Assembly (NCBI GenBank): GCA_025558095.1
Contig: JAIVFI010000001.1
Coordinates: forward strand, 696,501 to 760,500
From: Hyaloraphidium curvatum
Lineage: Eukaryota > Monoblepharomycota > Hyaloraphidiomycetes > Hyaloraphidiales > Hyaloraphidiaceae
Direction of reading: 5' to 3'
Length of the DNA stretch: 64,000 nt
The notes under the pieces: generated by a model
Databases searched by the model: none
Told to the model about the DNA's origin: nothing
What the model saw: only the letters and a program-made list of their open reading frames with translations
Position numbers and translations under genes: made by a program
Part shown: positions 6,529-40,710 of the stretch, in pieces
Position numbering within the stretch: position 1 is the first letter of the stretch
Layout of the letters: each line of letters opens with the position of its first letter

Positions 6529-8209
6529 TCAGTAGCACACCGACTCCATCGTCAAGTAGATTCCGCTCCCTCTCGCCAGCCCCCACAGCGCGAACCCGAC
6601 CGTGAGCATCGTCGCCGCGACCGTCCTCACGGTGCCGTAGCCGACCGGGACGCCCCAGAACCGCATCTCGAGCCCGCGCACGTCCAAGAGGGAGGAAAGC
6701 ATGCGGTCGTGCCTGTCGAGCTCGGACGCGAGGGGGTTCGTGCGGTGCAGGAGCGCCATCCGGCGGAGGGTCTGGCGGGCGGTCATGTAGAGCGCGATTA
6801 CGGAGCGGATCTGCGAGTTTGAGGCGGCGATTGCCACGAAGTCGAGGAAGAAGGCGACGAAAACCCAGGCAGTGATAGGTACGAGCCATGCTGGGATGCA
6901 GAGCCCGCCGATCTTTAACGACGCCACGGCACCGGATTAGCCGAGGCAAATTCCTGGCACTCATAATCGCACCCACAAGGTTCAGAATAACGGCGATGGC
7001 TATTGCGGAGCACATCATGAAAAAGGAAGCCCGGTCTCCTGTGAACAGATGCGGAATCCTCCTCTCCCAGATCCTTGAGAGCAACAAGTGTAGCCGCACG
7101 TAAAGCTCTTCGGAGTTTCTTTCCCCATCCGTACGAGCTTTTCCCTCCTCTTCAGGCGCACGATCGGTGCTCCTGAGCTGGGAATCCAGGCGATCCAGTA
7201 GAGAATCAAGGGCGAGAGACATAGCCCTGAAATGAAGCTTCTCCGCCAGACCCATCGCCGGAAACGAGGCATTGAATCTGGCAGGTGTACCGGTCATGTA
7301 CGCGAAGGCATCCATCGCGTAGTAAAACGCGCCCAAGAGAGCCCACCACCAGGCAAACCAGAACGGACCAGCGAAGGTGACGGCGGCGGTGTACGGAAAC
7401 AGGCACATCCCGATCATGGGGAGCACCATGCGGGTGCATACCTCGGCGGCGCGAGACCACGCAGCACGCGCAGCTACGGCGCCCGAACACGATTGCAGGC
7501 CGCAAGGGCACATTTGATCCCCGTCTCGGTGGGCCACAAGCGCCGACGGGACGTGCCCGAGCTCGACCGCGTCCGCTCCAGCGGCGTCATCCGCGACGCC
7601 CGCACGACCTTGGAGGTCAAGGAGCTCCTTCCATCTGGCGATCGTAGCCAGGGGATGGGATCCGAGATCGGGATCTGCGGCGGCATGCGGTTGCGGGGTG
7701 GAGCGGTTGACTCCTAGCCGTGCGTTTCGTGACGATCCGAAGTAAGTGGCTTTGAACGTGGCCCGGATGAGGGCGAAGGTGAAACACAACAAGTACACGC
7801 AGCTTCCGGCGATGCCGCAGGCAACGGCGCGCGTTGAAAACCGGCCGTCGTTGAGGATCGCAGGCGCGGGGGTAATCGCAAAGGCGAGGCCGACAAAAGC
7901 CAAAAGCCGCAGGCCAGAACGCGCGCTGAGCGGCGACAGTAGCACCTGGATGTCGATCCACGCTGCAAGGTGCCCGCTGAGCGCGCCAATCTCGCGACGG
8001 AGGGCCCCCATGGTCAGTGGGCGCTCCGAACGCGCCAGGGCCGCCGGATCGGAGGGCGACATCAAAGGCCCCGAGCCGGGCGTGCGCCGCGGCGCAGCGA
8101 CCGCGGCGGGAAGGATGGCGAGCCATTCGTCGGGGGTGAAGTCCACGAGGTCTCCGGCGGGCATCTCAGGGGCTCCGGTCATGGCTCCGTGCGGCACACC
8201 GCCTTCCAT
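6529..8209 (-). CDS. 7TM-A: seven-TM membrane protein of the cassette family
   Basis: Two exons (8209-6977, 6912-6529; 64-nt phase-0 intron with a GTGGGT donor) give 538 residues. Order: soluble N-terminus with FTPDEW at 24-29; TM1 and TM2 in about 100-155; a cytosolic loop with CPCGLQSC at 234-241; TM3 about 262-283; TM4 about 284-305 with a WWW motif; a helical loop with SEELYVRL near 365; TM5 and TM6 either side of the intron at 411/412; SNSQIRS at 442; TM7 within the last 37 residues, ending TMESVCY. No named family is recognised. The open frame continues upstream of ATG 8209 without another ATG, and that upstream part aligns with the N-terminus of copy B, so the real start may be non-canonical or lost. 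Closest copy is C. Confidence 0.82.
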
Positions 8210-8381
8210 GAGCAAGTTGCTTATTTGCGCGGTGGCGGAAAAAGAACAGGAAGATTCCTTCGGCCACGGAAGCGCGTGCGGTGGCTCGGCAAGGTCTGCG
8301 GTGAAACTGGCTGGCACCACGGAGAATTCCGAGTTCCTCCCCGTCGTGTTGGGCTCCAGTGCGTATACAAATCAAAGACCG

Positions 8382-8831
8382 CTACCGCCGCCTCGGCCGG
8401 GGCTTGCCCTCACGCAACGCCTGAAAAAGGATGTCATTGCCCATGGCCCGCGCTATTTGAATCCGTGCGCGAAGGCGAGCCGTGTACCGTGCCATCATCA
8501 AACCCCCCACGTCCCATTCCTTACCGTCTGATCCTTCCGGGGGGTGCGCGCGTCGGGCGATCCGTGGGATGAAGGCTGCTGCCGCGGGTCCGAGCCGACC
8601 GTGGGTCTCTTGGCCGAGATGAACATAGGCCACCGGAGCTGGGTCCGGGATCGCAAAGCGACCGTTGAAATATTCCACCTTCTTCGCCTCAGCGTTCGCG
8701 GCCGTCACCCCAGACTCGCGCGCCGCATCCAGAGACTGCGAAATAGACGGGAGGCACACCATGTGGTCAATGATGATCGGTCGCCGGCCCGGCTCGGTGA
8801 TCACGATGTCCGTCGCTGCTAACGCACTCAC
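8382..8831 (-). mobile_element. Non-LTR retrotransposon fragment (RT C-terminal endonuclease-like region)
   Basis: A 149-codon minus-strand frame reads like the C-terminal restriction-like endonuclease part of a LINE/R2-type reverse transcriptase. It has GRRPIIIDHMV, then AEAKKVEYFN (the E.K-Y spacing seen in those endonucleases), then ETHGRLGPAAAAFI, which closely resembles the V-E-x-x-GRLGPAA motif of many eukaryotic RT proteins, and an AR.MGNDILFQAL tail. The RT domain, YxDD motif and 5' part are absent, so this is a dead remnant. It sits between 7TM-A and HR2. Recognition of the motif is from family knowledge; no database search was run. Confidence 0.5.
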
Positions 8832-9066
8832 GCGGTGTTGTTCGGCTGTGCAAGATTATCTCTTCCAATAATCACGACACAAGCCGCCTTTCTGTACAAG
8901 CGCGCCGTCTTCCCCTTCCGAACCAACATCGTCCATCACCAAGATAGCATCAACCTTCCAACTCAGGCACCGTGGTGGTATAGCGATCAGAGTCCGTGAG
9001 CCGTCGCCAAACCGATTGATGTCCACTCCACAAATGGCGAGGCAAACCCGAGAGGCAGGCGCCAAC

Positions 9067-9903
9067 CTAGCCCGGCCCGTTGTTGAGCATCGCATGCAGG
9101 ATCGCCATGCGGGCCTTGAGCACGGTGCCGAGCCCGGGGCTGCGCGCGGCCGCCGCGACCCTCTGGGGATAGCTCCGGAACACCTCCCGGAGCTTCAGCA
9201 CGGGCGACGCGAGCACGATCTCGCGGACGCCGGGCTCCACGTCCCTGTTGGCCAGCGCCAGCAGGACGCCGATGCGGTCGTCCACGGCGGGCCTGCAGTG
9301 CACCAGGATCGAGTCGCAAAAGGCGCGGGCGAAATCGGCGTCGTAATCGGGCAGGTTGGCGGCGAATGCGGAGATGCAGGAGCGGAGGGCGCAGCGCAAG
9401 TCAAGGCCCCGCTCCGTGGAGGCGATGGCGCTCAGGAGCTTGAGACACCGCGTCGAGCAGCGGTCCAAGGCGATGCCGATCATCTCGGGGGCGTAGATGC
9501 CCACTATCGTGGGGCGAACGAGCACAAAGCTGAACAGGCATTCGAGGGCATCGGCCTCCAGCAGGACGTCGAGCACCCTGCCGAGGACATTTTCGTCGAG
9601 GTCAGGGGCGGAGAGGAGGCCGGCATTGTGCTCCTCGCCGCCTCCTTCGTCGAAATCATTGTAGATAGCGGCCATGGTGAGGCCGGTCTCGGTGATGCCG
9701 ATGTCTTCGGCCTCGATGGCATTCATGCGGTCCTCGATCCACTGCTGTCCCCGCGTGGGCGCCGGGTACTGCAAAGCCGAGGCCAGGTCTTGCGTGTAGA
9801 AGGGCTGCGGCAGCGACGTCAGGGCCCGAGGCGCAGCAGCCGGCGCGCGGTCCCGAACCACGTAGTGCGCCGCCTGGTCGGCAGCCGCGTTGAGTGCGTC
9901 CAT
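9067..9903 (-). CDS. HR2: helical soluble protein, HR family
   Basis: A single exon of 278 residues from the first ATG at 9903; the frame is open for about 30 codons upstream without ATG. The N-terminal 60 residues are Ala/Pro-rich and probably disordered. The rest is helical. It shares with HR1 and HR3 the signature ARAFCDSILVHCRPAVDDRI.VLLALA followed by V.EIVLASPVLKL, and an upstream EADALECLFSFVLVRPTIVG segment matching HR1 ADSLEFLYYIKSRRPDI. No catalytic motif, signal peptide or TM segment. Its 3' flank (about 8968-9030) resembles that of HR1, indicating shared descent including non-coding DNA. It lies downstream of 7TM-B on the same strand. Confidence 0.72.
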   Translation of the reverse strand: MDALNAAADQAAHYVVRDRAPAAAPRALTSLPQPFYTQDLASALQYPAPTRGQQWIEDRMNAIEAEDIGITETGLTMAAIYNDFDEGGGEEHNAGLLSAPDLDENVLGRVLDVLLEADALECLFSFVLVRPTIVGIYAPEMIGIALDRCSTRCLKLLSAIASTERGLDLRCALRSCISAFAANLPDYDADFARAFCDSILVHCRPAVDDRIGVLLALANRDVEPGVREIVLASPVLKLREVFRSYPQRVAAAARSPGLGTVLKARMAILHAMLNNGPG

Positions 9904-11559
9904 GGCGGGCGGGCTGCTGCCGCCGCCGGAGATTCCGCCGGGCCCCGCGTGGTCCGGGCCGGAGAAAGGAGAAGCGGGAAAGTCGTCGCACCACTGCAAA
10001 GGCGGTGAGCCCCGGCTGGGCGGCCCTTTCTGCGAATCGGGCTCGAACCAACCGGAACGAGGCGGCGCCGTGCGATTCCGCGGCGAAAGGGCGCGCGTGT
10101 CTGAGGTTTCCGGACCCGCGCCCGGTCAGGGCCGCCGGCGGCCGAGATACGGGGCGACGCGGCACGCCGCTTGCAATCCGTTACTCGGGGAAACACTCGA
10201 ATGCAATATAGCCGCGCGCTCGTGTCCGCCGCGAGCCGAGAACGTCGCTGAAATGCCGACCCAAAAGGGTGGGGCTGCCCCGGAGCGGCGGTGAGCCCCC
10301 GCCCCTCCGCCGGCGCGCAAAACACCCACCCGAATCCGACCCCGCGTCGCAGAGACGGTGCTGGGCTCCGAGCGGGGGTTCCGGGGGGCGCTGGGCCGGA
10401 ATCGCGGGGGAAACTTGCGCGCGCGGCGGAGGCGCGTCCGACGGCCTTCCGGCCCCTCCGGGGGCCCGAAACGCGCGGAAGGCTACCGATGCGCGCTCCG
10501 GCGGTGCCGAATGGCCCGGCGGAAGCCGATACGCGGCGGGGAACGCCGTCCGAATCCCCTATTTGCCCCGCTAGGCGCCGCGCGCTAGGCGCGGGCCAAA
10601 TAGGCCGTGGAAACGCGTGGAAAAAGGCATCCCCGCGCCCCCGGGGCAGCGGATGGAGCTTTCCCGCTCCCCGAGGCGTTAGCTCGGGTCATTGCGGCGG
10701 CGTTCCGGCCGCCGGGGGCGGGGCGGGCCGCACGGCGTTCGCGGGGCGTGCGCGCGGCAGAAGGGCGCCGCCCCGGCCCGCGCCGCGCGGCGCGCGTGCC
10801 CGGTAGACCCCATCGGCTGCACGGAAACGAAAGGCCGATGGAAGGAGGTCGAAGCGGGTGCGTGGCTCCACGCTGCTTCGCATGGATGGGCCGTTCAAGA
10901 TCGCTCTCAATCTGCTCTCAACTGGTGGCTGAAAACTTGGGCGGCTCTCAACGAGCTCTCAACTCGCCGGGCATCAGAGTTTCAGAGGAATCGGTCCGAT
11001 TTACTCCCTCGAAGCTTGGCAGATGCCGGCTTTAGTCCCTTGGCAACGGAGGAAGTTGGCCTTTCTCCGCGACGAATGCAAAAAGGCGCGAGTTTCCGAC
11101 CCACCGGCCGAATCCCGGGAGTACCTGCGGGAGGACGGACAACGAACACCGATGCTGCAAGCTGCAGCACACTTGAACCTATTGAAGTCCCGATCGCATC
11201 CTGCCGGCCACCGCGGCCTCAACCAAGCGGGTGACACCTCATACTGTCCCCAGAACCTTTCTGCGAGGCCCAATACGATTCTTTCCTTGCCGCTCCTTTC
11301 TGTGTGCTCTGAGAAAGTGCAAATGGAGCCCGGAGCTTGTCTGATTTTTCCGTCGCGAACCATGGGCCGAAGCAGCGGGACGGAACAGTTGTTGCGCTGC
11401 CCGGTGGGAAGTTCGACGCAACCGGGATCGACGTCCAAATGCCCTGGATGTTACCAAAGCTACGTATCGGCTCGAAGCATTGTAGATCCCGTTGTGCTCT
11501 TGCGACTAAAGTGTAGTGTGAATGGACCAAGACGCTCGTTCTGCGCGAGAGGTGATGGG
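9904..11559. repeat. GC-rich spacer element of cassette 2
   Basis: No convincing gene in 1.66 kb. Position matches the spacers of the other two cassettes (between an HR gene and the 3' flank of a 7TM gene). A segment near 10600 (GGGCCAAATAGGC, then GGCATCCCCG) resembles the reverse complement of about 23270-23180 in cassette 3, so the spacers are at least partly homologous. The part from about 10850 to 11500 is less GC-rich; 11465-11555 resembles 13940-14035 (TCGGCTCGAAGCATT..), another small dispersed repeat. Confidence 0.5.
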
Positions 11560-11739
11560 CATCGGCAGTCCCCCGATCCGCCCCGAAAACCGCGGCCGGG
11601 GAGGCCATCCGCCGGGCCCCGTGGTCCCGGATCGGCACCCGTGCCGGCTGGTCGAGGCTCAGTTCGCAGGGGGAGGTCCCTACGGGTTGAGAGGCCCGCA
11701 CTTTCTCAAATCCAAGCGCAGCCAACCTCTGAGCTGTAT
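11560..11739 (-). repeat. Conserved 3' flank of 7TM gene B
   Basis: Gap-free match to 6349-6528, the flank of gene A, at an exactly constant offset of 5211 bases that continues into the coding region. Only about three mismatches in 180 bases, fewer than in the adjacent exon 2. Confidence 0.75.
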
Positions 11740-13601
11740 TCAGTAGCACACCGATTCCATCGTGAGGTAGATCCCGCTCCCCCTCGCCAGCCCCCACAGC
11801 GCAAACCCGACCGTGAGCATCGTCGCCGCCACCGTCCGCACGGTCCCGTAGCCGACCGGGACGCCCCAGAACCGCATCTCGAGCCCGCGCACGTCCAGGA
11901 GGGAGGAAAGCATGCGGTCGTGCCTGTCGATCTCGGACGCGAGGGGATGGGTGCGGTGCAGGAGCGCCATGCGGCGGAGGGCCTGGCGGGCTGTCACGTA
12001 GAGCGCGACGACGGAGCGGATCTGCGAGTTGGAGGCGGCGATCCCGATGAAGTCGATGAAAAAGATGGCGAGGAGCCATGAGACGTAGAGGACGAGCCAC
12101 ACGGGGATGCAGAGCCCGCCGATCTGCGGCGGACGCGCGGGCGGGGATCAGCCGGGGCCTGCCGGGGCTCGGCGATGACACTCACAAGGTTCAGGGCTGC
12201 GGCGATGGCTGCTGAAGCGCACAGCAGGAAAAAAGTGGTCCGGTCTCCCGTGAACAGGTACGGAATGCGCTTCTCCCAGATCCTCGAGAGCAGCAAGTGC
12301 AGCCGCACGTAAAGCTCTTCAGAGGCCGGTTCCTCGGCCATGGCCGGCTTCCTTTCCTCTGCAGACGCACGTTCGGTGCTCCTAAGCTGGCCGTCCAGGC
12401 GATCCAGCACGGAATCGAGAGCGAGCGACATCGCCCTGACGTGAAGCCTCTCGGCCAAACCCATCGCCGGGAAGGAGGCGATGAACCTGCCGGGTGCGCC
12501 GCCGAGGTACACCCACGCACAAATCGCGTAGAACAACGCGCCCAAAAGAGCCCACCACCATGCAGACCAGAACGAGCCTGCATAAGTGACCACGGCTGTA
12601 TAGGGTATGAGGGTCGCGGCAACCATCGAGGTCGCCCAGCGAAAGAAGAACTCGAAATCGCGGGACCATGCCGCACGTACGGCGACGGTACCGGAGCACG
12701 ATCGGAGGCCGCAGGGACACATGGGATCCCCCTCCCGATGGGCCACGAGCGCCGACGCGCCGTGCCCGAGCTCGATCGCGTCCGCGCAAACGTCCCCGTT
12801 TGCGGGCCCGCCGGGGCCCTGCAGGTCGAGAAGCTCTTTCCATCGGGCGATCGTGGCCAGGGCGTGGGATCCGAGGTCGGGATCGGGGGCGGCCGCGGAT
12901 GCCGGGGCTGCGCGGTCGGGTCCCTTTCGTGCGTCTTTCGACAATCGGAAGTAAGAGGACGAGTACGCCGCCCGAAAGAGGCCAACGGAAGCGAAAAGCC
13001 AGATTGCGCAGAATCCGGCGGTGCCGCAGGCCACGGCGCGCGCGGAGAACCGCCCGTCGTTGAGCACCGCGAGCGCGGGGCTGAGCGCGAGGCCGGCGGC
13101 GCTTTGAAGCACAGGACGCAGGCCAGGACGCGTGTTGAGCGGCGCCAGCAGCACCTGCAGGTCGATCCAAGCCGCGAGGTGTCCGCTGAGCGCGCCAATC
13201 TCGCGACGGAGGGCCCCCGTGGTCAGTGGGCGCTCCGAACGCGCCATAGCCGCGGGGTCCGCTGGCGACGTCAAGGGCCCCGAGCCGGGCGTGCGGCGCG
13301 GCGCGGCGACCGCGGCGGGAAGGATGGCGAGCCATTCGTCGGGCGTAAAGTCCACGAGGTCTCCGGCGAGCATCTCTGGCGCTCTGGTCGTGGCTCCGCG
13401 CGGCACACCGTCTTCCATGGGCAAATCGCTTATTTGCACGACGGCGGAAAGAGAAGAGGAAGATTCCTTCGCCGCGGAAGCGCGGAAGCGCGTGCGGTCC
13501 GCGGCAAGTCCACAGTCTACGGTGAAGTCAACCTGGCTGGAGGAGAATTCCGGGTGCGAGGCTGCCAGTCGCGGGGTCGCGGGGTGCCTCATGTTTCTCA
13601 T
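11740..13601 (-). CDS. 7TM-B: seven-TM membrane protein of the cassette family
   Basis: Two exons (13601-12186, 12123-11740; 62-nt phase-0 intron, GTGAGT donor) encode 599 residues from a true ATG, giving the fullest N-terminus of the A/B/C group. Layout matches gene A: FTPDEWLAILP, TM1-TM2, CPCGLRSC in a cytosolic loop, TM3, TM4 with WWW, SEELYVRL helix, TM5|intron|TM6, SNSQIRS, TM7, TMESVCY at the end. TM1/TM2 and the TM3 region have diverged most from A and C, while the C-terminal exon is nearly unchanged. Forms a same-strand pair with HR2. Function unknown. Confidence 0.84.
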
Positions 13602-14077
13602 CGCGCCACTTTTGCCTGCCGGCCCATCATATACGCTTCCTCAAGACCTTGATACCTCATCCTTGAACACATCGTGATATTGGCTAGCTTGCCTTATGCG
13701 GCACCGTCTTTTCGCTCGTCTCCATTCTCCCAAACTCTATCCATCAGAACCGAACGGATGCTCAGCTCTTTGTGACATGGTCCAGCAGCATCTGGATCTG
13801 GCGTCCTAGGGATTCGAGGCTGCTCGTTGGAAGCCGAACCCGCTCACGGTGCCGTGCCTGCTGTCTGCGGTCATGCCTTGGCCGGACTCGACCGTCGTCA
13901 CAATACCCAGCACACTCTCACTGGCTGCTTGTCGGCTCGAAGCATTAGAGATCCCCTTGAGTCCTTGTCTCTGGCGATCGAAATGTGGTGCGAATGGAGC
14001 AAGACTTTGCTCGCGAGAGGCCTTGTGAGACTTGTGATGGGCCCGCGGTCCCGCGACCGTTCACACCACCTCCACCG
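13602..14077. other. Intergenic, with small dispersed repeats
   Basis: 476 bases without a gene. The first part (TCAAGACCTTGATACC near 13643) resembles the reverse complement of about 22715-22690, and 13935-14035 resembles 11465-11555. These look like pieces of dispersed repeats abutting cassette 2. The promoters of 7TM-B and of the gene at 14078 must lie here. Confidence 0.45.
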
Positions 14078-15928: not shown

Positions 15929-15969
15929 CTTTCCTGGTTGGTTGGGCAAGTAGATTGATGCGCAGACAG

Positions 15970-16788
15970 TTACCGGTGCGGTTTGCCGCGGGGAGGGGAG
16001 AGGTCCGATAGCACCGCCTCCGGCACCCCCGCCCTCCTGAGCACGCGCACCAACCCCTCCCTGTCCCCCTCCTCCGAAACGATGAAACCGGCCTCCACGT
16101 CCCCGCCAGGCAAGGGCGGCCCGTCGTGCAGGACGTCCATCATCTTCTCCCTGCACTTCCTCCCCGCGCTGTCCACATCGACCGTCTCGGTCCGGTGCCT
16201 CCTCAGGTACTCCCCGCACCCCGCCGCGCTCCCGAGCAGCAGGATGAGTATCAGCCTCCCCCTGAAATACACCCCGCCGCGCAGCCCCAGCTCCGAAGCC
16301 CACCGCCGTATCAGCGCGCAGTAGGGCGCGGGGCGGCGCATGTGGTGCAGCCGGAGCAGGAGGAGCCGCGCCGCTTCCTGCCCGCCCGGTTGCGGTTGCG
16401 CGTCGGGTTCCGGAGGAGCAGGGGGTTCGAGGCGGAGGGAATCGCATGCCGCCGCGACGGCATCGGGGAACGCGTCCAAGTCGCCCCCCGCGGCGTCGAA
16501 CGCGAGGCGGGCGGCGTGCATCGCCCTCCCCGCCGCCCCGTTGTCCAACCCGTCGCGCTCGGTCCTGACTTCCTTCAGTTCGCACACCCCATCGGACGAG
16601 TACGCGGCGGAGAGGGTGCCGAGCAAGCCGCCCTCCCCGTCGTCGGAGAGGTCCCGGAGGTTCACGACCAGGAGCGAGCCGGAGCCGCGGGGGTGCACGC
16701 CGAGGTCGGAGGAGTAGATGGCGCGGAGGAGGGTGAGGGGGTCGGAGTCAAGGTCGGGAAGGGGATCCGGGGGAGATTGGGAGGGCAT
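15970..16788 (-). CDS. RWD domain / Prp3 C-terminal-like protein (RWDD2-like)
   Basis: Single exon of 272 residues from ATG 16788. The frame also allows an ATG at 16875, but that extension (MSVTPISRPMRRRHRRPP) looks untranslated or leader-like. The N-terminus (LTLLRAIYSSDLGVH.., LLVVNLRDL) fits the first strand and helix of an RWD domain. The C-terminal half (LLLRLHHMRRPAPYCALIRRWASELGLRGGVYFRGRL) fits the DUF1115/Prp3-C module of RWDD2A/B: the HH..., WA-ELGL-G, and G-L-I-L elements occur in order. RWDD2 proteins are poorly characterised and may bind ubiquitin-pathway partners. Converges tail to tail with the proline-rich gene, only 41 bases apart. Assignment is from motif resemblance. Confidence 0.6.
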   Translation of the reverse strand: MPSQSPPDPLPDLDSDPLTLLRAIYSSDLGVHPRGSGSLLVVNLRDLSDDGEGGLLGTLSAAYSSDGVCELKEVRTERDGLDNGAAGRAMHAARLAFDAAGGDLDAFPDAVAAACDSLRLEPPAPPEPDAQPQPGGQEAARLLLLRLHHMRRPAPYCALIRRWASELGLRGGVYFRGRLILILLLGSAAGCGEYLRRHRTETVDVDSAGRKCREKMMDVLHDGPPLPGGDVEAGFIVSEEGDREGLVRVLRRAGVPEAVLSDLSPPRGKPHR

Positions 16789-19539: not shown

Positions 19540-21175
19540 ATGCCCGCCGGAGACCTCGTCGACTTCACCCCCGACGAATGGCTCGCCATCCTTCCCGCCG
19601 CCGTCGCCGCGCCGCGCCGCACGCCCGGCTCGGGGCCCTTGACGTCGCCTACCGATCCCGCTGCTCTGGCGCGCTCGGAGCGCCCGCTGACGCCCACGGC
19701 CCTCCGTCGCGAGGTCGGCGCGCTCAGTGGGCACCTCGCGGCTTGGATCGGCCTGCAGATGCTGCTGTCGCCGCTCAACGCGCGTTCCGGCCTGCGGTTT
19801 TTGGCCTTTACCGTCGCCGCCCTCGCGCTTACCCCCGCGCCTGCGATCCTCAACGACGGGCGGTTGTCCACTCGAGCTCTGGCCTGCGGCATTGCAGGAA
19901 GCTGGGTGGTCTTCCTTTTTTCCACTGTCGGCCTCATCCGAGCGACGTTCAGGGCAACGTACTTCGGATCGTCGCGAAACGCACGGCGAGGAGCCAACAG
20001 CCGCACCCCAGCACCGGTCGCCGCCCCGGATATCGATCTCGGATCCCATCCCCTGGCTACGATCGCCAGATGGAAGGAGCTCCTCGACCTCCAAGGCCCC
20101 GCGGGCGCTGCGGATGAAGCCGTTGGATCGGACGCAGTTCAACTCGGGCACATTCCCTCGGAGCTCGTGGCCCACCGGGACGGTGATCCGATGTGCCCTT
20201 GCGGCCTGCAATCGTGTTCGGGCGCCGTAGCTGCGCGTGCTGCGTGGTCTCGCGCCGCCGAGGTATGCACCCGCATGGTGCTCGCGATGACCGGGATGAG
20301 CCTCTTTCCGTACACTGCCGCCGTCACCTTCGCTGGCCCGTTCTGGTCTGCCTGGTGGTGGGCTCTTTTAGGCGCATTCTACTACGCAATGGATGCGTTC
20401 TTTTACCTCACCGGCACACCTGGCAGATTCAGTGCCTCGTTTCCAGCGATGGGTCTGGCAGAGAAGCTTCATTTCAGGGCGATGTCTCTCGCCCTCGATT
20501 CTCTACTGGATCGCTTGGATTCCCGGCTTACGAGCACCGACGGTGAGGCTGAGCAGGACGAAAAAGCTCGTACAGATGGGGAGGAAAACTCCGAAGAGCT
20601 TTACATACGGCTACATCTGCTGCTCTCGAGGATCTGGGAGAGGAGGATACCACACCTTTTTACGGGCGACCGCACGAGCTTTTCCCTGTTGTGCTCCGGA
20701 GTGGCTATCGCCGTTATTCTGAACCTTGTGAGTGCAATCATAAGTACCACAGTTTCGCCTCGGCTGATCCGCGGTCGTCGCCTCGTTGCAGATCGGCGGA
20801 CTCTGCATCCCGGCATGGCTCGTTCTCATCACCGCCTGGGTCTTCGTCATCTTCCTTCTCGACTTTGTGGCGATCGCCGCCTCCAACTCGCAGATCCGCT
20901 CCGTCGTCGCGCTCTACGTGACAGCCCGCCAGGCCCTCCGCCGCATGGCGCTCCTGCACCGCACGCACCCCCTCGCCTCCGAGCTCGACAGGCACGACCG
21001 CATGCTTTCATCCCTCTTGGACGTCCGCGGGCTCGAGATGCGGTTCTGGGGCGTCCCGGTCGGGTACGGCACCGTGAGGACGGTCGCGGCGACGATGCTG
21101 ACGGTCGGGTTCGCGCTGTGGGGGCTGGCGAGGGGGAGCGGGATCTATCTCACGATGGAGTCGGTCTGCTACTGA
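19540..21175 (+). CDS. 7TM-C: seven-TM membrane protein of the cassette family
   Basis: Two exons (19540-20727, 20792-21175; 64-nt phase-0 intron, GTGAGT donor) give 523 residues, starting at the first in-frame ATG (MPAGDLVDFTPDEW). Closest relative is gene A: TM3/TM4 (SLFPYTAAVTFAGPFWSAWW) and the loop after TM4 are nearly identical. The CPCGLQSC loop, EELYIRLH helix, SNSQIRS motif and TMESVCY ending are all present. The N-terminus is about 70 residues shorter than in B. It lies in inverted orientation to A and B and is the 5' gene of cassette 3. The 3' flank seen right after the stop of A and B is missing here, because about 1.1 kb with a ChaC gene intervenes. Confidence 0.84.
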
Positions 21176-25200: not shown

Positions 25201-26883
25201 ATGTTGCCTGCGGGCGACGACACCGAGTCCGGCGGACTTGAGCTTGGCAAATGGGCGGACGACCCGGGGACGGACGACCGGGCGGAAGGGCCCGGAGAAG
25301 CGCGGCGGAGGCGCGTTCTCGCGGGCTCCGCGGCAGCGGGACCTCCGTCGTCGGCCGAGCGCAGCGACTTCACGCCGGAGGAATGGCTCGTTCTTTTTCC
25401 ATCGCCGCTGCCTCCTTTGGACGCGTTTGGAGGCATTGGCTTCTCGCAGCACGCCGATCCGGCCGCGGCTCTGCGTGCAAGCGAGCCGCTCACTGCGGAC
25501 GCAATGCTACGCGAATTTGACCACGCGGTCCTGCATCTCGCGGCGATATTGGGACTCCGCTCGCCACTAGTATGGAACACATGGCTTGCCGCCGCGGCCT
25601 TCGCGCTGAACGGCGCCATGTCGCTCGCACTCCTGGGCACCGCGGCAGCATGGAACGACGGGCGCTTCACGCCGACGGCGATCGGCGTCGGGATTGCAGC
25701 CGTGGCCCTCTTGTTCGCGTCCTTGTTTACGATCTTTGCGAGTGCTGCCGTTAGTTGGCCACCGATCTCGAGTGTGATGGACTTCGTTGCGCCGGCTGGC
25801 ATGTTTCGGTGGCTTCGCGCAGTGCGGAGAACAGACAACCGGCAGTTGCAAGCCAAGGGCAATGCTTCCGCCGCCGTCGGTGGCAACCTCCTTCAGCACC
25901 TGCCGGACGATCCAGACTGCCCTTGTTCGAGCTGCTTGCCGAAAGTGCAGCTCTTTGCTGGGGTATTGGCCTTGCTCGACGAGATATCGAACGGTGCCTT
26001 CTTCATTACCATGCTCTTCATGATGGTCTTCACGCCCTACGTCACGTTTGGCGGTCGGATTTGGACCACCTGGTGGAGTGCGTGCATCGGGGTCTTGAAC
26101 GGTAACGTGCTTGCCGCATCTCAAATCCTTAACATTCACGCGTAGCCCTCTACAACAGCTCTTTTCGTGCTCTCGTTTGTTTTCAACACTTCCGGGCGCT
26201 TCTTAACGATCGCCAACTTGGCTTACGCGGCTCTCGAACGCCGCCTTCTGCGACGCGCAACGACACTTGCTATGCAAGACCTCATTGCGGCCTGTCACGA
26301 CGCCGCATCAGAGGCGGACAACTCGGACGGATTCCGCTTGCTTCGCGGCACTGGCTGGCTCTATGCGCACCTGCACTACCGGTTTGCGAGCGTCTGTCGC
26401 GTAAGGGACAAGCAGGACCAGGCCTTCGTTAGCAGGCTCGTGGCGATCACCGGTTTCCCCGCCGCCATCATTGGCATTCTGCTTTCGATCACGACGGGAC
26501 GATGCTTACCAGTCTGGCTGCTCATCTTTCTGCCCACACAAGTGCTTTACTTTACCGTGAACGCCGTCCACGTGGCGTCGCGAAACGCCCTCCTCGACAC
26601 GGTCGCCGGCGTCTACCGCGACGCGCAGCGCGAATTGCGCATGCTCGCCGTAGCCGCGGGCCCGGGCCCGCTTGCCGACGCGATCGGGCTGCACGACGCC
26701 GCGATCGCGTCGTTTCTGGAGGCTTCGAGGTACCGCGCCAAGATGTTCGGGTTCACGGTCGGATACGGGACCGTGCGAACGTTCCTGGTGACGCTGGTGA
26801 CGGTCGCGGTGGCCCTGTGGGGCGTGCTCAGGGGGTTTGGCGTGTTTGTGACTGTGGAGAGCTTCTGTCCGTCGGAACCGTGA
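25201..26883 (+). CDS. 7TM-D: divergent member of the seven-TM family
   Basis: Two exons (25201-26101, 26159-26883; 57-nt phase-1 intron) encode 541 residues. Shared features with A-C: FTPEEWLVLFP near residue 70, a TM pair before and over WNDGRFTPTA, a CPCSSC cytosolic loop, WTTWW at TM4, TM5/TM6, a HVASRNALLD motif in place of SNSQIRSV, and a C-terminal TM7 (VGYGTVRTFLVTLVTVAVALWG) ending TVESFCPSEP. The single intron falls inside TM4, at the same place and phase as in genes E and F. The intron used by A-C between TM5 and TM6 is absent. Lies directly downstream of HR3 on the same strand. Confidence 0.8.
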
Positions 26884-27394: not shown

Positions 27395-27815
27395 GGCGTT
27401 GCGCGGGGTTCTTGCGAGACGGTGGGTGGAAATCAGTCAGTCACGCGGCTCTCCGCGAAATCAGTCAGTCATGGAGCAGCGCGGGGCTGGTGCCGATGAA
27501 AGAGAACCAAGAAGGTATTCATCGCTGCACTGAACCATCACCCGATTTGCTTGCGATCAATCATTAATGGCAGAGAAGTTTGCACTCGGGGCGTGCGCCA
27601 GGATTGCACTTCTTTGTCGGCTGTGACGCCGCCCCTTTCTCAATCTTGTCCGGTCCACCTATTGTGCACGCAGAGACAACTCCGCGACTCGCGCTGTCTA
27701 TAGGCAGAGCGAACTGCTGCGGTCGACGCGCGTTCTGCCTTTGGAGCGAGTTTACCTTCCCGTAAGCGCGGCCGTGTCTCCCAAACAACATCAGACCCAG
27801 CAACACAGAAACGCG
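27395..27815. other. Intergenic
   Basis: 421 bases upstream of the oxidoreductase gene. A GAAATCAGTCAGTCA motif occurs twice near 27430 and 27458. Nothing else recognised. Confidence 0.45.
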
Positions 27816-28970
27816 ATGGCCCCGAAACCGCTAGGCGTCGGCATCATCGGCGGGTCGCCCGACCGCGGGTGGGCCGTGGACGCGCACATCCCGGCGCTCG
27901 ACGCGCTCGGGGAGCTCTACAAGCTCACGGCCGTGGCGACGAGCCGGCCCGAGTCCGCCAAGGCCGCGGAGCAAAAGTTCGGAGTCAAAGCCTACTCGGA
28001 CCACCGCGAGCTCGTTGCTGATCCCGAGGTGGACGTGGTGGTGGTGTCGGTCAAGGTGCCGGAGCACTTCAAGCTCGTCTCGTCGGCGCTCGAGTCGGGG
28101 AAGCGCGTCATCTGCGAATGGCCGCTGGGCAACGGGGCTGCCGAGGCGGCCAAGCTCGCCGAGGAGGCCGCGAAGCGCGGGATCCCGAACCTGGTCGGGC
28201 TCCAGGCGCGTTCGGCGCCCGCCTTCAACTACATCCGCGATTTGATCAGGGAAGGCTTCGTCGGCGAGATCATGTCGACCTCGGTGATCGGCAGCGGCAA
28301 CTTCCCGGCCGAAGCCTCCGTGCCGAGCTTCTACTCGTACCTCCTGGACAGGAAGAACGGCGCCACGACCCTCACGATCCCGTTCTCGCACTTCACTGAC
28401 GCGATGCAGTACGCCCTGGGCAGGGAGTTCGTCGAGGTATCTGCGAACCTCGCCGTGCGGCGTCCCAAGGTGCCCGTGGTCGGCGGCGGCGAGCTGGAAG
28501 CCACCGCACACGACCAGATCTCCGTCTCGGGCGTGCTCGAGGGCGGCGCCCCCGCGACGGTCGCTTTCAAGTTTTACCGGTCGCCCGGGGCCAACTTTTT
28601 GTGGGAAATCAACGGGACCAAGGGGGACCTGAGCATCACCGGACCCTCGGGCCACGTTCAGATGTTTGACGTCGAGATCAAAGGCAGCCAGCACGGCAAA
28701 GCGCTGGAAGCCATGCCGGTGCCGGAAAAGTTCCACTGGGTTCCCGCGGGGGTGCCCAAGGGCTCGCCCTTCAACGTCGCGCAGGCGTACGTCCAGGTCG
28801 CGGACGACTGGGCGGGGAAGGAGGTGGCGGGAAGGTCGCCCGCGCCGACGTTTGCGGACGCGGTGAAGCAGCACCGGTTTGTGGAGGCGATCGAGGCGGC
28901 CGCCGAGACGGGGATCAAGCACGTCAGGGGCAGCGACGGGCTGTGGAAGCCGGCGGCGGCGAAGATATAG
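27816..28970 (+). CDS. Gfo/Idh/MocA family NAD(P)-dependent oxidoreductase
   Basis: Single exon of 384 residues, ATG 27816 (MAPKPLGVGIIGGSPDRGWA). The N-terminal Rossmann fold shows the family G-I-I-G-G nucleotide loop (residues 8-13), YSDHRELVADPEVDVVVVSV, and HFKLVSSALESGKRVICEWPLG, where family members have the E-K-P or equivalent motif (here E-W-P). The C-terminal domain covers the substrate site (GGELEATAHDQISVSG). The E-W-P variant and the overall pattern resemble the fungal Gal80-like/galactose-repressor-related branch, so it could be an enzyme on sugars or a regulatory homologue. The final residues (GLWKPAAAKI) match the usual family end. Confidence 0.88.
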   Translation: MAPKPLGVGIIGGSPDRGWAVDAHIPALDALGELYKLTAVATSRPESAKAAEQKFGVKAYSDHRELVADPEVDVVVVSVKVPEHFKLVSSALESGKRVICEWPLGNGAAEAAKLAEEAAKRGIPNLVGLQARSAPAFNYIRDLIREGFVGEIMSTSVIGSGNFPAEASVPSFYSYLLDRKNGATTLTIPFSHFTDAMQYALGREFVEVSANLAVRRPKVPVVGGGELEATAHDQISVSGVLEGGAPATVAFKFYRSPGANFLWEINGTKGDLSITGPSGHVQMFDVEIKGSQHGKALEAMPVPEKFHWVPAGVPKGSPFNVAQAYVQVADDWAGKEVAGRSPAPTFADAVKQHRFVEAIEAAAETGIKHVRGSDGLWKPAAAKI

Positions 28971-30985: not shown

Positions 30986-31435
30986 GCCGCGTCCGGGAGA
31001 GCGGCGAGCGGAGCGGGCGGAGTCTTCGGCGGCGGCACACGCAAAACTGCGTTCTCCCAATGTCCCCAATGGGATTGGCGCCTCCTTCCCAGGTCCACAC
31101 GTGGGCCGCAACCACTATGAAATCCATGCGCAAGGCCGAACTAGGTATGTTCGCCGTTGCGTCGCCCAGCATGCGCGATCGAGGCGTCCGTGACCGAGAT
31201 TGCCGGCGGCCTTCGACAACCGGATCTGATCTTCTTCTGCGCAAATCAGCACGCCGGCAGCTCCTGCGATCGGCCTTCCATCCCAAACCGGGTTTGCTGG
31301 GCCTGCTGGCGCAATCTCGGGCTAGAGTCCGGACCGGGTGCTCCCAGAACACCCGGAAAGCCGCGCCGCGTCGGTAAACAAGCCGACGCCGGCACCTTTC
31401 GCGTCACAACGCGTTCGGGCCACGCGTCCACCGAC
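30986..31435. promoter_or_regulatory. Divergent intergenic region between MICAL-like and M28 peptidase genes
   Basis: 450 bases between two outward-facing start codons. Both 5' UTRs and promoters must lie here. No gene or recognised element. Confidence 0.4.
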
Positions 31436-34400: not shown

Positions 34401-34479
34401 GCGCTTTGCGAGGACGGCGCTGCCCCAGTGGACGGCCCCGATGCTCGTTGCCAGCGTTGGCGGGGTGTGGTGGTTCTAG
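31436..34479 (+). CDS. ERMP1/Pff1-like membrane M28 metallopeptidase
   Basis: Three exons (31436-32690, 32753-33860, 33918-34479) make 974 residues. A short cytosolic tail leads into TM1 (PTAVLLAAVFATFLFIHWHF, about 60-80). The lumenal M28 domain has the metal sites: SHLDTNYGSAGAADAASG (His, Asp; about 217-234) and NGAEE with the catalytic and metal Glu pair near 263, then NLEACGQGG and D...F. Several TM helices follow in exon 2, and a lumenal C-terminal domain in exon 3 (VHLLSSTWNAGSGTRDVHLE). This is the layout of ER metallopeptidase 1 and fungal vacuolar membrane protease. Splices: G|GTGGGC..CCAG|GG and AA|GTGGGT..CCAG|C. Likely in the ER or vacuole membrane. Confidence 0.88.
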
Positions 34480-34535
34480 CGACATGGTATGATCGCTAGA
34501 TTCGGAACTCACGAGAGATACACGCTTTCGGCTCG

Positions 34536-36337
34536 CTACATGTGCGTCGGACAGATCGATTCCATCGTGACGTAGATCCCTGAAATGCGGAAGATCGACC
34601 AGAGGCCGACCAACAATGTGAAAACTGTGATGAGCACGTTGCGCGCTACCATCGCATCCACGGCGAACCCGAGCAGCTTCCCCCTGAACCGTTCTACGCT
34701 CAGGAAAGATTCCAGGGCGAGGTCATGGCGCCGCGCCATTTGCAGAGCCACGCGCCGGGACGGATCCGAGCGCAGCGCCATCGTCCTCAGCTCCTTGCGC
34801 GCGGAGAGGTAGAGGTCCGTGATCACGGTGATCTGCGAATTGCTGACGGCGATGTTGACCACGTCGATCGTGAGGATCAGGATCGCAAAGCAGGTGATTC
34901 CCAGGAACCACCCGGTAACGCACATCCCAGCGATCTGTAGCAAGAATGGTCAAGATCGAGAGTCCACGACAGCCGGAATTGACGCGACAAAACTCACGAT
35001 GTTGAGGATCAAATTAATCGGGACCATGAAAAACGTCAGCACCAGTATGACTGCACCCGAGGCCAGGAGAGGTAGCCGCTCCTCCCACGACGCGGTGAGC
35101 GAGTCGTGCAGCTTGACGTACAGCTCCTCGCTCTGCTCCCCGTGCGCCGCATCCACCTCCGGCCCGAACAAGGCCTTTCGCTGCCGGTCCAGCATGGAGC
35201 TAAGCGCAATGCTCATCGCACGGTGATGCAAACGCATGGAGATGCGGAGCAGAGAAATGTTGCCGCTGAAGCGGGCGGTGAGGTTCACGACAAAGTACAA
35301 GGCGCATGTGGCGACTTCGACCGAGTTGGATCAGAACAGCGAGGTGCATTTTCGAGCTCGAACCTACCACTGAGGACTCCAAAAGTTGCAAAGTACCACG
35401 TGGTCCAGAATCTCGGTCCGAATGATACAAGGGAAGTGTACCCCAGAGCGATCGCGTATGTGAAAAAGCACAGTGAAAATCTGATGGCATACTCCATCAC
35501 CCTCAAGTGTCCGCTTTGCTTCAGTAAAGCGCCCGCGCAGCTCGGCAGGATGCACGGGCAGAGCGGATCCGTGTGATCGTGGCGGACGAGCTTCGAGGCT
35601 CCCTCGGCCTGCAGCTCCCCTTTCTCCTCTTTCGAAGGGGCGTTTTCCATTTCCACGTCCGCACCCGCTTCGATGAGCTGGACCCATCGAACTGCCGGCC
35701 CGAGTGGATGCCGGCTCAGGTCCCCAGCAGCGGCCGCTCGGCCCGGTTCAGGGCGGGTCACGGTTGCGCGCAGACCGATAAACAGCGGGCCAATGACCAG
35801 AGCCAACAGAAAGACGCTGATATTGATGGTCCCTGGAAACGGCAAGGGGCCCATTAGCGTAGGAGAGGGCCGCGGGTGCCTCAACCCACCAATGATGAGC
35901 TGGCTCGTCCCGAAGCGGCCGTCGTTGAGGACCCACATGGCCACCACCACTCCGATCGTGGGCACCAGATACAGAAGGTATCGCTCCAACATTTTGGCTG
36001 AGAAGGGCGCCAGCCACAGCTGGAAGGCGCAAATGAGCCGCTGGGGAGTGCTGCCCCGCAGTCCGCGCAGGAGCGCTTCCTCGTTCAGCGGGTCCGAGAG
36101 GCGCAGGTGCTCGGCAGGATCATAGGGCCGATATTCGCCGAGCGACGGTGGTCTCGGCGGCCGGGAGGGAAACAGGGTGAGCCATTCCCGGGGCGTGAAC
36201 GAGGCCGGCGCGGACGGGGGCGCGGAAGACAGGGTGTCCGCGCCGTTCAGTGCGTCGTCGTCGGGTGCGCTGCTGCGCCTGAAGGATAGCGTGCCCGACG
36301 TGCCGGGCATGGTCGCGGACTCGGAATGGCCGTCCAT
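34536..36337 (-). CDS. 7TM-E: divergent member of the seven-TM family
   Basis: Three exons (36337-35368, 35314-34998, 34934-34536; introns 53 and 63 nt) give 561 residues. The disordered N-terminus leads to FTPREWLTLFP, then TM1-TM2 around WVLNDGRF, HDHTDPLCPCILPSC in the loop, TM3, TM4 with WTTW, a helical loop with SEELYVKLHD, TM5|intron|TM6, AVSNSQITVITDLYLSARK, and TM7 ending YVTMESICPTHM. E retains both family introns: phase 1 inside TM4 (as D and F) and phase 0 between TM5 and TM6 (as A, B, C and F). This suggests the ancestral structure. It converges with the M28 peptidase gene with 56 bases between stops, and no HR gene is beside it. Confidence 0.82.
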
Positions 36338-36478
36338 TGTCTTGTGACTGGAGGCGGTTCTACGTGGAAGAGCGATTTCTATTTGGAACGCGGGGTCCCT
36401 GCGCAAAGCTGGCTGGCGCTGACATCATTTTGCCACGCTGAAGTCGACCAGCGTTGAATGCATGTTGCTTCGGCTCAA

Positions 36479-37532
36479 CTACATATCTCCCTTGGCGTGT
36501 TCCGCCGCGTCCATGTCACAGCTTCGGCAGACCTTGCATGCCGGGATCCTCGTCCGCACGGTTCCTGCCGTCTCTTTCGTCCAGTAGGCATCGCCTTCCC
36601 TCGGGAACCCCAGCAGCTCCCTCTGCCTCCCTCCATGCGCTCCAGCATCTCCTCGAACTTCCCCCGCTCTGGCGGATCGGGCGGTACCGCCGCCCAGGCG
36701 CTGTACGCGTTGGCCGCCCAGCCGACGTGCCAGGACGTGATCCTGAAGCCCGCGGCCTCGCTCTTGTACATCATGTTGACCACCGCGCGGGACCGCCCCG
36801 GCAGGAGCGGTGTGCCGGGGTGCCACAGGTCCAGGCGGTGGAAGAGGATGGTCCCCACGCGGAAGTCGAGGTACTCCTCGCGTGCGTACAGCGTCCGCCG
36901 CAGCTCGAATGCTTCGGGATCCCGCGTCTCCAGGTCCTTTTCTGCCAGAATCCGGTTGTTGATCCACGGGTTCAGGCCGAACCCTCGCATCAACTTGTAA
37001 TCCGGGTCATTGCCGCCCCTCCGTTTGACCAGCGCGGTCCGGCCCCCACAATCGGTCGCGTCGTCAAAGTAGGCGATCATGGCCACTGCTTCGGGCCGAT
37101 CCCACGGCGACGGGTGGACTAGGTGGTGATTGGGGAAGTCCATTGTATCCGCTGGTCATCGTTGTCGAACGGCGTAGGGGCAACCCCGGGATCGCGGCCG
37201 TGCTTGAGCCACGCCTCTCCCTGGGACAGTAGCAGACGCGGCGTGCCCAACAGCTCCGCGCACGCGCCGACGACGCGTCGGTGCATCACGAGGTCGTTTA
37301 GCGGGGCATAGCGCCGGTCCAGAAAGGGAAAACTGGCCCTGCCAAAGGTTGTCGAGTCGCCAGCTTTGCCGCCGCCGGGGTCGCCGAGCGCTCTCGTGGC
37401 AGCGCGGAACGCAGCGGCCTCTGCGACCGTGGGCACCTCGCCCGGCCCGGCGACCGCCGTCGCGCACGCGTGAACGGCGAAGAAGCCGTCACTTCTCCAC
37501 GACGCGATCTGCTCGGCTGTCAGGACGCCCAT
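36479..37532 (-). pseudogene. Phytanoyl-CoA dioxygenase-like Fe(II)/2OG gene with two -1 frameshifts
   Basis: The minus strand from ATG 37532 encodes a PhyH-like protein in three successive frames. Frame 1 runs to NDDQRI near 37149, frame 2 continues as MDFPNHHLVHPSPWDRPEAV.. from 37143, and frame 3 as RELLGFPREGDAYWTKET from about 36640. Family members read QRIHMDFPNH here, so one base is missing in the CAC His codon that provides the first iron ligand (H-x-D). The second break is near 36640. The span is 1054 bases, two short of a multiple of three, as two single-base losses predict. The distal H site (DLWHPGTPLLPGRSRAV) is intact. Either a decaying gene or indel errors in the assembly. Confidence 0.7.
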
Positions 37533-37647
37533 TTCCAGGGGTCGCCGGCCCGAGTAGGTGCTGAATGAGAGCCGCTGCCGCGCTCCACTATTTGCCTCCC
37601 GCTTCGATCGTCCCGGTCAACTGTCCCCCAAGCTCCATCTCGTGGAC

Positions 37648-39037
37648 ATGACCGCCCGCGCTGTTCCCGCCGACGCGTCGGCAGCCGCCACCGATCCTGC
37701 CGTCCTGCAATGGATGGTCGGCTCCCCGCCTCCTCCCGAGAAAGTCATCAGGCACAGCGACGTGGAGGCCAACGGACTACCGCGCTTCTTTTCTTTCCCG
37801 TGGTGCCGATGGGGATTCGCTAGCCTCAGACAGCTGTACGTTGCTTGTTCAACGTGTCTTCCGTGAAGCTCGGGCTGAACCGCAGTTCTCGAAGTGTTCC
37901 CACGGTGAAGATCTCTCGTGGCGATGGCCCAGTTTCGGAGGTTCCGAGAGGCGAAAGAACGGACCTCGACGACGTCAAGTACACGCCACTGGGGTCGTCC
38001 GAGCAGCTCACCTGGAAAGACTCGCTGGACCGCAACTTCACGGACGCCATTGTGATCCTTCACAAAGGCACGATCGTCTACGAGAAGTACTTCGGGATCA
38101 TGGCTCCGGACCGTGAGCACATGGCTGCCAGCGTCACCAAATCCTTCACGGGGATGCTCGCCTCGGTGCTCGTTCACGAGGGCGTGATCGACGAGAATGC
38201 GCTCGTGACCAAGTATGTCCCCGAGCTCGAGGGGTGGGTCATCCGCTCGTGGTTAGCTTCACCGCCGCTCACCACGCTTTGTTCAGGTCGGCTTTCGGCG
38301 ACGCCACCGTACGAAACGTGATGGACATGAGAACCGGGGTTGCCTACACCGAGGACTACGCCGATCCCGATGCGGGCATCTGGGAGGCGCTGCGCGCCAC
38401 GAACTTCTTCCCCCGGCCGGCGGGCTACTCTGGCGCCAGGTCGACCTACGAGTTCCTCGTGAAGCTGAAGAAGAACGGTCCCCACGGCGCGGACTTCAAG
38501 TACAAGACCGTCAACACGGACGTCCTCGGCTGGATCATCCGCCGGGCGACCGGGAAACCCTACGTGCAGCTGCTCTCGGAGCGGTTCTGGGCGCCTCTCG
38601 GATGCGAACGCGACGCATCGATCTCGGTGGACGAGGAAGGCACCGAGTTTGCCGGGGGCGGCCTGATGCCCTGCCTCCGGGATCTGGCCAGGGCCGGCGA
38701 AATGCTCCGGCTGGGTGGCAAGTTCAACGGACGGCAGATCCTGCCCGCGGCCGTGGTCGAGGACATCCGGCACGGCGGCTCGCCCGAGGCGTTCAAGGCG
38801 TTCGGGGCGCCAACGATGCCCGGGGGCGCGTACCGCTCGCAGTTCTGGGTGACCAACAACGAGCACGGGTGCTACGCAGCTCGCGGCGTCCATGGGCAGG
38901 GCATCTGGGTGGACCCAAAGGCGGACGTGGTGATTGCCCGGTTTGCCTCGCACCCAATCTCGACCAACGCGCAGATTGATCCGCACACCCTTCCCGCCTA
39001 TGTGGCCGTAGCAAAGCACTTGGCGCTCAAGCATTGA
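37648..39037 (+). CDS. Serine beta-lactamase-like hydrolase (NylB/EstB type)
   Basis: Three exons (37648-37835, 37895-38233, 38287-39037; introns 59 and 53 nt, donors GTACGT and GTGGGT) give 425 residues. Class C beta-lactamase-fold elements are in order: SVTKSFTG with nucleophile Ser and Lys (S-x-x-K), YKTVNTDVLGWIIRRATG with the Y-x-N tyrosine, and HGQGIWVDP at the third (K/H-x-G) site. The arrangement RQLVPTVKISRG.. / TWKDSL / ..VYEKYFG resembles 6-aminohexanoate-dimer hydrolase relatives. It probably hydrolyses an amide or ester; the substrate is unknown. Sequence wording is bacterial-like, yet two introns are present, so any transfer is old. No signal peptide is seen. Confidence 0.86.
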
Positions 39038-39091
39038 AGGGCTCACAACTGCATTGAATTCGAAACTTCGTAAACTCAGGCTTAAGGGCCG

Positions 39092-40710
39092 TCAGAGGCC
39101 CGTAGGGCAGAACGTTTCCATTGTGAATCTTACGCCCGCCCCTTTCGCGATCGAGAAAGCTGCGACGCCCAGGGTGACCAGTGTCGCACCGAACGCCCTC
39201 ACTGCGCCGAAATCCACTTCAAACCCGAGGACCCGTACCATGCTGGACCTTCCTTGGCCTACGAGCGCGTCCAGCCGTGCGTCATGTGCGGCAAGCTCCT
39301 TTGCCGCTGCTGCTTCAGTATCACCGTACCGCGCGATGGCGAGGAGACGGTCGCGGATTGGTAGCTGCGCAGTGCAGAGGAGGTCCGTGAGGATGTGGAT
39401 CCGGGAGTTGAACGCTGCTACACTGAGGAGGAGAACGGCGTAGTAGTTTAAGTACCATGCCACAACAAAGATCTGCCAAGCAGTGACGCAGCCAAAAGCA
39501 ATCTGCATCCCAGGAGGGTCGGGAAACGTCATCGGGGCTCAGACTCTGGAACAGCACTACCTACAGCCGTCACGGCAATGCCGGCCAGCACGATAAGCAT
39601 GGCCCCGGAAACCATCTTGTTCAGCGCCCTCAAGGGCCCAAAGAGGGACCCGTCTTTCCACGACGCTGCAAGGTGCAAAAAAATGACAGCGTAGGCGTCG
39701 CTCGCGGCAACGCCATCGGCAGAGGAAGTCTCCTCTGCTGCCGAGCTGGCCGAGCCGGATTCGTAAGCGTTGATCAGAGCGTTGAGTGCGTCCGAGAGAG
39801 CCCTCCGCTGCACGCGCATAGTGAGCTCGGTGACGGGAATGGCCGGGATAAGGTCAATATAGGTGCTTGTTCCGGTCACGGCGACTAAGAAAGCGAGTAT
39901 CACTGCAATTGGTCCAAACGCAATAGAGTCGGTCGTTTGAGCATTCAACCGCAGTCTCCGAAGGGCACTTACAGTAGATTGCGCCAAAAGACGCACCCCA
40001 CCAAGTGAACCAAAAGGTCTGAGCATGCGAAACAAATGCCGTCCACGCAAAGCAGAGGTAGAACGCCGCGCAAAGCCCAAAAATGGTGCACATAACACTG
40101 ACGTAGCTGATGCCGATCCAGACCGCGTTCTCGCGGACGCAGGCTGGGCATGGGCAAAGCGCGTCGCCTTCCACGTGGCGCACCAACGGGGACGCCTGCT
40201 TGCTCTCGCCGCTGCCATCTTCAAGCAACCTGGCCCACCTGTCGATCGAGGCAAGAGGAAGGGCGGAGTCGAGGTTTGGGTTGGGCAAGACCAACTTGAA
40301 AGGTACGCCGCGCAGATTGCGGAACCATATGGCAGCAACGAACGCGTTGGGGGCTAGTAGTACCAAGCTGCACACGGCAATCGAAGCCGGCGAAAAGACG
40401 CTCGGGGCCCACAACGCAGCGGCTGCGGCGGGCAGCGCGGCGAGAGCGCCGAACCAGCGACAGCGCCGCTAACGCGCGAGACCACAGGCCACGGCGCAAC
40501 CAACGCGTGCGCAGCGAGCGCGTAGCGACCAAAAAGCGGCGCGCCGATCGCCGCACAAGCCGCCCGGAACGTCTGCGGGCGGCACCGGGAAGAATCGCGG
40601 TGCGCGGACGCCGCCTCAGCGCTGGGGTCTGGCTTTGCGCGCCCGCCCGGCAGCGGCGCCGCCAGCGCGCGGATGTTGGGCAGCACTGCGAGCCACTCTT
40701 CCGGCGTCAT
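39092..40710 (-). CDS. 7TM-F: divergent seven-TM family member with a probable frameshift
   Basis: Three exons (40710-39973, 39902-39565, 39502-39092; introns 70 and 62 nt). Family marks: MTPEEWLAVLP at the very start, CPCPAC in the loop after TM2, FTWWGASFGA at TM4, a helical loop, TM5|intron|TM6, AFNSRIHILTDLL, and TM7 ending FTMETFCPTGL. Both introns match E in position and phase. In exon 1 the reading frame changes between about 40500 and 40440, around TM1/TM2: the MTPEEW frame loses its family resemblance and the ALAALPAAAAALWAPSVF frame takes over. Spliced length is 1487 bases, not a multiple of three. It may be a pseudogene or contain a base-call error. Missing the usual N-terminal extension. 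Confidence 0.6.

Follow-up and report, generated by a model that had tools for sequence, protein, structure and literature searches.

A very large, apparently undescribed family of putative seven-transmembrane surface receptors in the fungus Hyaloraphidium curvatum, with a predicted membrane layout like that of insect odorant and gustatory receptors

Introduction

The superfamily of insect odorant and gustatory receptors (ORs and GRs; 7TMICs), for which Orco (6C70), BmGr9 (8VC1) and AgamOR28 (8V3C) provide structures and Pfam 7tm_6 and 7tm_7 provide profiles, consists of proteins with seven transmembrane helices (TMs), an N-terminus inside the cell and inner loops that are longer than the outer ones. 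Himmel et al. (Current Biology, 2023) reportedly extended this superfamily further. GRs canonically carry the motif TYhhhhhQF in TM7, which is already degraded in the GR-like proteins (GRLs) of fungi, and animal GRs have a phase-0 intron immediately upstream of the exon that encodes TM7. Structurally, 7TMICs have a cytoplasmic anchor formed by extended TM4-6 and a TM7 that is split into TM7a and TM7b (PMC9998090). Outside animals, Benton et al. 2020 reported candidate GRLs from two Spizellomyces chytrids, a single one from each, and assigned to the superfamily the plant DUF3537 proteins, which are likewise N-inside with seven TMs (PMC7746228). A later structural screen by Benton and Himmel (2023), which required Z > 10 to Orco, recovered no Orco-like fold among the fungi that it covered, chytrids lying outside the survey (PMC9998090). 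Fungi also possess several classes of GPCR, such as the Pth11-like proteins, which have seven TMs and in some fungi form large repertoires (PMC12842992).

Here we analyse a window of 64,000 nucleotides from the 31.9 Mb assembly of Hyaloraphidium curvatum (GCA_025558095.1; 55 contigs), in which a first-pass annotation had proposed six related seven-TM genes, belonging to an undescribed, lineage-expanding family with possible distant homology to ORs and GRs.

Results

Six homologous genes in one window

All six loci were confirmed, are homologous to one another, and lie close to where they had first been placed; five of them, A to E, yield complete gene models whose introns are of the GT-AG type and 53-64 nt long. 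Their features, in window coordinates, are as follows.

Gene A, 6529-8209, minus strand: 538 aa; exons 8209-6977 and 6912-6529, with a single 64-nt phase-0 intron
Gene B, 11740-13601, minus strand: 599 aa in the model, the extra N-terminal part of which is unproven; exons 13601-12186 and 12123-11740
Gene C, 19540-21175, plus strand: 523 aa; exons 19540-20727 and 20792-21175
Intron of gene C in the TM5-6 loop, 20728-20791, plus strand: phase 0, at a site common to genes A, B, E and F and to the distant copies L004 and L045 elsewhere in the genome
Gene D, 25201-26883, plus strand: 541 aa; exons 25201-26101 and 26159-26883, with a phase-1 intron within TM4
Gene E, 34536-36337, minus strand: 542 aa; exons 36337-35890, 35832-35368, 35314-34998 and 34934-34536, with three introns of phases 1, 1 and 0
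Gene F, 39092-40710, minus strand: introns 39972-39903 and 39564-39503, at the TM4 and TM5-6 sites of the family

Gene F contains the same family features in pieces. It is interrupted in TM1 by a one-base frame break between 40477 and 40462, its remaining exons being intact; a search for an intron that could resolve the break yielded no convincing candidate, and the gene is either a recent pseudogene or the carrier of a sequence error. A, B, C and E share a phase-0 intron within the TM5-6 loop, and matching frames place it in F too; a phase-1 intron in TM4 is found in D, E and F. These common intron sites provide further evidence for the common descent of the window genes.

Genes A, B and C group closely, with pairwise identities of 73-86%; D and E share about 29-35% identity with this trio, and an alignment of A-E contains about 80 invariant columns. 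The dN/dS values of 0.24-0.35 among A-C indicate that these three genes are under purifying selection. Their duplicated units barely exceed the genes themselves, with the exception of a 3' flank of about 190 nt that is common to A and B. Among the motifs by which the genes had been linked, GYGTVRT is found in A-D, as proposed. ELYVRLH, which had been ascribed to A, B, C and E, is exact in A and B, and reads ELYIRLH in C and ELYVKLH in E. The SN[SR].I segment after TM6 was recovered as SNSQI in A-C and in E, reads NSRI in F, and has been lost from D.

Outside the six genes, the A-C cluster is flanked by diverged inverted repeats that are 65-72% identical (5652-6488 against 23072-22262, and 4923-5155 against 23668-23441). 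A 310-codon open frame that has no Pfam match lies between A and B (9067-9999), a gene for a Gal80-like/GFO-IDH-MocA oxidoreductase lies between D and E (27741-28970), and genes for a Pkinase protein (57111-59867) and an Importin-13-like protein (61024-62718) follow downstream.

At least 164 copies in the genome

When six protein queries were searched against the genome, and the matches were merged into distinct loci, we identified at least 164 loci of the family on 41 of the 55 contigs, 134 of which span more than 1,250 nt. The figure is a lower bound, because the final two queries were still adding new loci (9 of 84 and 12 of 80, respectively). Six genes was therefore a large undercount, and the idea of a lineage-specific expansion is strongly supported within this genome, where the family probably makes up more than 1% of all genes. 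Nowhere are the copies packed more closely than in the window, whose 64 kb hold six members as compared with a mean of 0.33; A-C, D and E are placed in different deep branches of the family. Three chitin-synthase N-terminal domains (PF08407) encoded in this genome identify it as fungal.

The majority of loci are single, stop-free open frames of about 480-700 codons, and a minority contain introns, stops or frame breaks. Two related copies illustrate how the TM5-6 intron is distributed.

L045, contig C12:731485-732993: has the precise phase-0 TM5-6 intron
L047, contig C36:374203-375636: sister of L045, without the TM5-6 intron

The presence of the intron in one sister and not in the other implies that introns came or went repeatedly, which suggests that exact intron loss (or gain) has recurred in a mostly single-exon family, perhaps by way of reverse-transcribed copies. 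Separately, two copies on different contigs (C30:69253-70359 and C48:24802-25908) have equal scores and lengths, and so reflect either a duplication of very recent date or a sequence entered twice in the assembly.

A predicted inside N-terminus and seven membrane crossings

A hydropathy and charge profile averaged over 32 members has seven hydrophobic peaks. Each protein has about 33 lysines and arginines in its N-terminus together with loops 2-3, 4-5 and 6-7, as opposed to about 2 across the odd loops plus the C-terminus; the former loops occupy 62-79 alignment columns each, the latter 8-13. This positive-charge bias predicts that the N-terminus is inside, in line with the layout of seven TMs and long loops 2-3, 4-5 and 6-7 that had been put forward from the six genes. 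As computed, the family has the 7TMIC arrangement of seven TMs (seen both as profile peaks and as helices in an AlphaFold model), an inside N-terminus and inner loops longer than the outer, and it agrees with the topology by which Benton et al. 2020 defined GRLs (PMC7746228). The N-terminus of a GPCR is extracellular; we therefore reject a GPCR identity for the family, which differs from the fungal GPCR classes in its opposite topology, in having no Pfam GPCR match and in a cytoplasmic cysteine motif described below.

Invariant cysteines: an HCCC motif predicted to be cytoplasmic and a pair predicted to lie outside

An alignment of 38 full-length members revealed that loop 2-3 contains a motif, H-x6-C-x-C-x(2-4)-C, whose histidine and three cysteines are present in 38 of 38 members, accompanied by a near-invariant aspartate. 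Exactly five cysteines are conserved, each in all 38: the three of loop 2-3, a fourth in the TM5-6 loop and a fifth at the C-terminus. In gene C these are encoded as follows.

HCCC motif, 20173-20217, plus strand: H-x3-D-x2-C-x-C-x4-C, comprising H212, D216, C219, C221 and C226
Codon of C401, 20804-20806, plus strand: TM5-6 loop, conserved in 38 of 38
Codon of C522, 21167-21169, plus strand: C-terminus after TM7, conserved in 38 of 38

R177, N428, G483, R492 and T500 are also invariant in the 38 members; the framework is fixed, and TM1-TM6 vary across the family. Because the predicted topology places the HCCC motif inside the cell, it is likely to form a metal site. The same topology places C401 and C522 outside, and the two probably form an extracellular disulfide. 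Both features set the family apart from the 7TMICs; we know of no OR or GR that has a cytoplasmic HCCC motif. PAQR/HlyIII proteins are zinc-binding seven-TM proteins with an inside N-terminus. The family has no Pfam match to them, and its presumed metal site is situated in loop 2-3 instead of the TM core.

Comparison with known families

Scans of 32 members against Pfam 2025 and NCBIfam 2026 returned chance-level matches only, including none to 7tm_6, 7tm_7 or DUF3537 (hmmscan), the three Pfam entries with which a comparison had been suggested; the family thus resembles the plant DUF3537 proteins in layout and differs from them in profile. A family profile found no match among PDB sequences, and the patterns used retrieved no relatives from bacterial, archaeal or viral contigs. 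In the literature searched, coverage of which was partial, we encountered no description of a family this large or with the HCCC motif. The lack of any sequence match in Pfam, NCBIfam or the PDB supports the proposal that the family is previously undescribed. Searches of the genome with PF08395 and PF00001 had no matches and were uninformative, as the control likewise produced none.

In a direct comparison by hhalign with an Orco/OR profile, built from Orco (letter-identical to PDB 9vqr), A. bakeri Orco and Or22a (sequence unconfirmed), the family scored a probability of 0.3%, equal to that of the bovine rhodopsin control. The TYhhhhhQF motif is absent from the 38-member alignment: the family's TM7 consensus is RTxxVTxxTVxVGLWSxLRG, in which T500 is invariant and neither Y nor Q/F occupies its expected position. 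Nor does the family have the phase-0 intron before the TM7 exon, its own phase-0 intron being located in the TM5-6 loop.

Low-confidence models and their structural neighbours

AlphaFold models were computed from the window sequences only, that is from six paralogues of which three are nearly identical, with the TM5-6-loop intron of gene A translated by means of one four-letter word and the introns of D and E read through at stops. Confidence was low both for the full-length model (pLDDT 48.7, pTM 0.41) and for a model of TM3-TM7 (pLDDT 56.8, pTM 0.44). In the full-length model, TM5 (354-419) and TM6 (442-488) are very long and are followed by a cytoplasmic helix (492-511) and by TM7 (524-547), an arrangement that, at this low confidence, would fit the cytoplasmic anchor and the divided TM7 of 7TMICs.

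Foldseek gave no significant match for either model; Gr64a appeared at rank 22 for TM3-TM7, with a non-significant E of 6.2. Using VIA-align, the full-length model aligned with BmGr9 (Z 6.9, rmsd 7.2, 228 residues; model 224-542 on chain 137-444) and the TM3-TM7 model with AgamOR28 (Z 7.3, rmsd 7.3, 240 of 323 residues; model 1-311 on chain 111-397), the latter being the longest alignment in that model's list. Each model thus drew an insect receptor as a long, collinear membrane match, at a Z of about 7 that falls within the range (below about 13) in which helical bundles can produce noise; unrelated soluble helical proteins reached higher Z than BmGr9 and AgamOR28, over shorter stretches. The recurrence of OR/GR chains in both models is, at this model quality, a hint and no proof. 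The top Foldseek rows (designed proteins, TRP, MATE) and VIA-align rows such as STAT, 14-3-3 and MukF were dismissed as helical-bundle noise, having a low TM-score or matching a helical stretch only.

Discussion

The suggestion of distant OR/GR homology is partly supported. The N-inside seven-TM layout is compatible with it, and the matches of the low-confidence models to BmGr9 and AgamOR28 hint at it; the profile comparison at the level of the rhodopsin control, and the missing TM7 motif and pre-TM7 intron, speak against it. Since the family shares the topology of the 7TMICs and not their sequence, TM7 motif or pre-TM7 intron, it cannot be filed as a member of that superfamily, and it may work like one. 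The predicted long TM5 and TM6, the predicted helix before TM7 and the large, diverged repertoire are further points of likeness. The two differ in copy number: the Spizellomyces chytrids have a single candidate GRL each (PMC7746228), and the present genome has at least 164 loci.

Our preferred, tentative reading is that H. curvatum possesses a repertoire of surface receptors with a 7TMIC-like layout, most likely chemosensory ligand-gated channels. In such a protein, which would cross the membrane seven times from an inside N-terminus, the TM2-TM3 loop would hold the H-C-C-C metal-binding site in the cytoplasm, the long helical cytoplasmic parts of TM4-TM6 together with the helix before TM7 would make up an inner domain, and the outer disulfide would join the TM5-6 loop to the C-terminus just past TM7. 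We infer a location at the cell surface and a role as receptor from this layout and from the pattern of the family: at least 164 diverged and dispersed copies, purifying selection on A-C, and an invariant framework with variable TM1-TM6 are, by analogy, what would be expected of a chemoreceptor repertoire. An OR/GR-like fold and channel activity are only hinted at. The most likely working mode would be that of the insect receptors, as oligomeric ligand-gated cation channels in which TM7 lines the pore and the variable outer face of TM1-6 binds different ligands, serving the sensing of environmental chemicals.

It is also possible, if doubtful, that these proteins form a new receptor class unrelated to 7TMICs, inverted seven-TM proteins that signal through the metal-bound loop and a protein partner and form no channel, their OR/GR likeness being convergent or an artefact of poor models. 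The lack of any sequence or profile link to a known family, the HCCC motif in every aligned member, the missing TM7 motif and the failure of Foldseek to yield a fold all favour such a class, whereas the topology, the predicted TM5, TM6 and pre-TM7 helices and the long, collinear OR/GR matches drawn separately by two models fit 7TMICs instead.

We consider it unlikely that the family is non-sensory, comprising transporters, scramblases or lipid or cell-wall enzymes in which HCCC is a structural zinc site or a catalytic centre. Transporter expansions are common in fungi, and polar or charged residues that are conserved where TMs end (N428, R492, T500) could act in catalysis or transport; against this, the invariant histidine and cysteines lie in an inner loop outside the TMs, a transport family would be unusual in having so many diverged copies (at least 164) within 32 Mb, and no transporter or enzyme family in Pfam or NCBIfam matched. 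Least probable is a self/non-self or allorecognition family (compare fungal HET), or a spread by retroposition or mobile elements without sensory role, for which the mostly intronless, dispersed copies, the precise intron present in L045 and absent from L047, and the stops or frame break in some copies could be cited, and against which stand the dN/dS among A-C, the framework that is invariant across deep divergence and the lack of transposon domains in the window ORFs tested.

A membrane family with no fewer than 164 copies in a single fungal genome of 32 Mb has thus been missing from the main family libraries. To return to the channel reading, in its strongest and rather doubtful form this fungus would have built more than 160 ligand-gated-channel chemoreceptors, a repertoire comparable to the olfactory repertoires of insects, from a highly diverged 7TMIC branch, with a metal site that is absent in animal receptors. 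If the fold is that of the insect smell and taste channels, no larger repertoire of this kind would be known outside animals, and big repertoires of channel-type chemoreceptors would have arisen more than once. If the fold differs, the family would represent a new class of seven-helix receptors with a cytoplasmic metal site.
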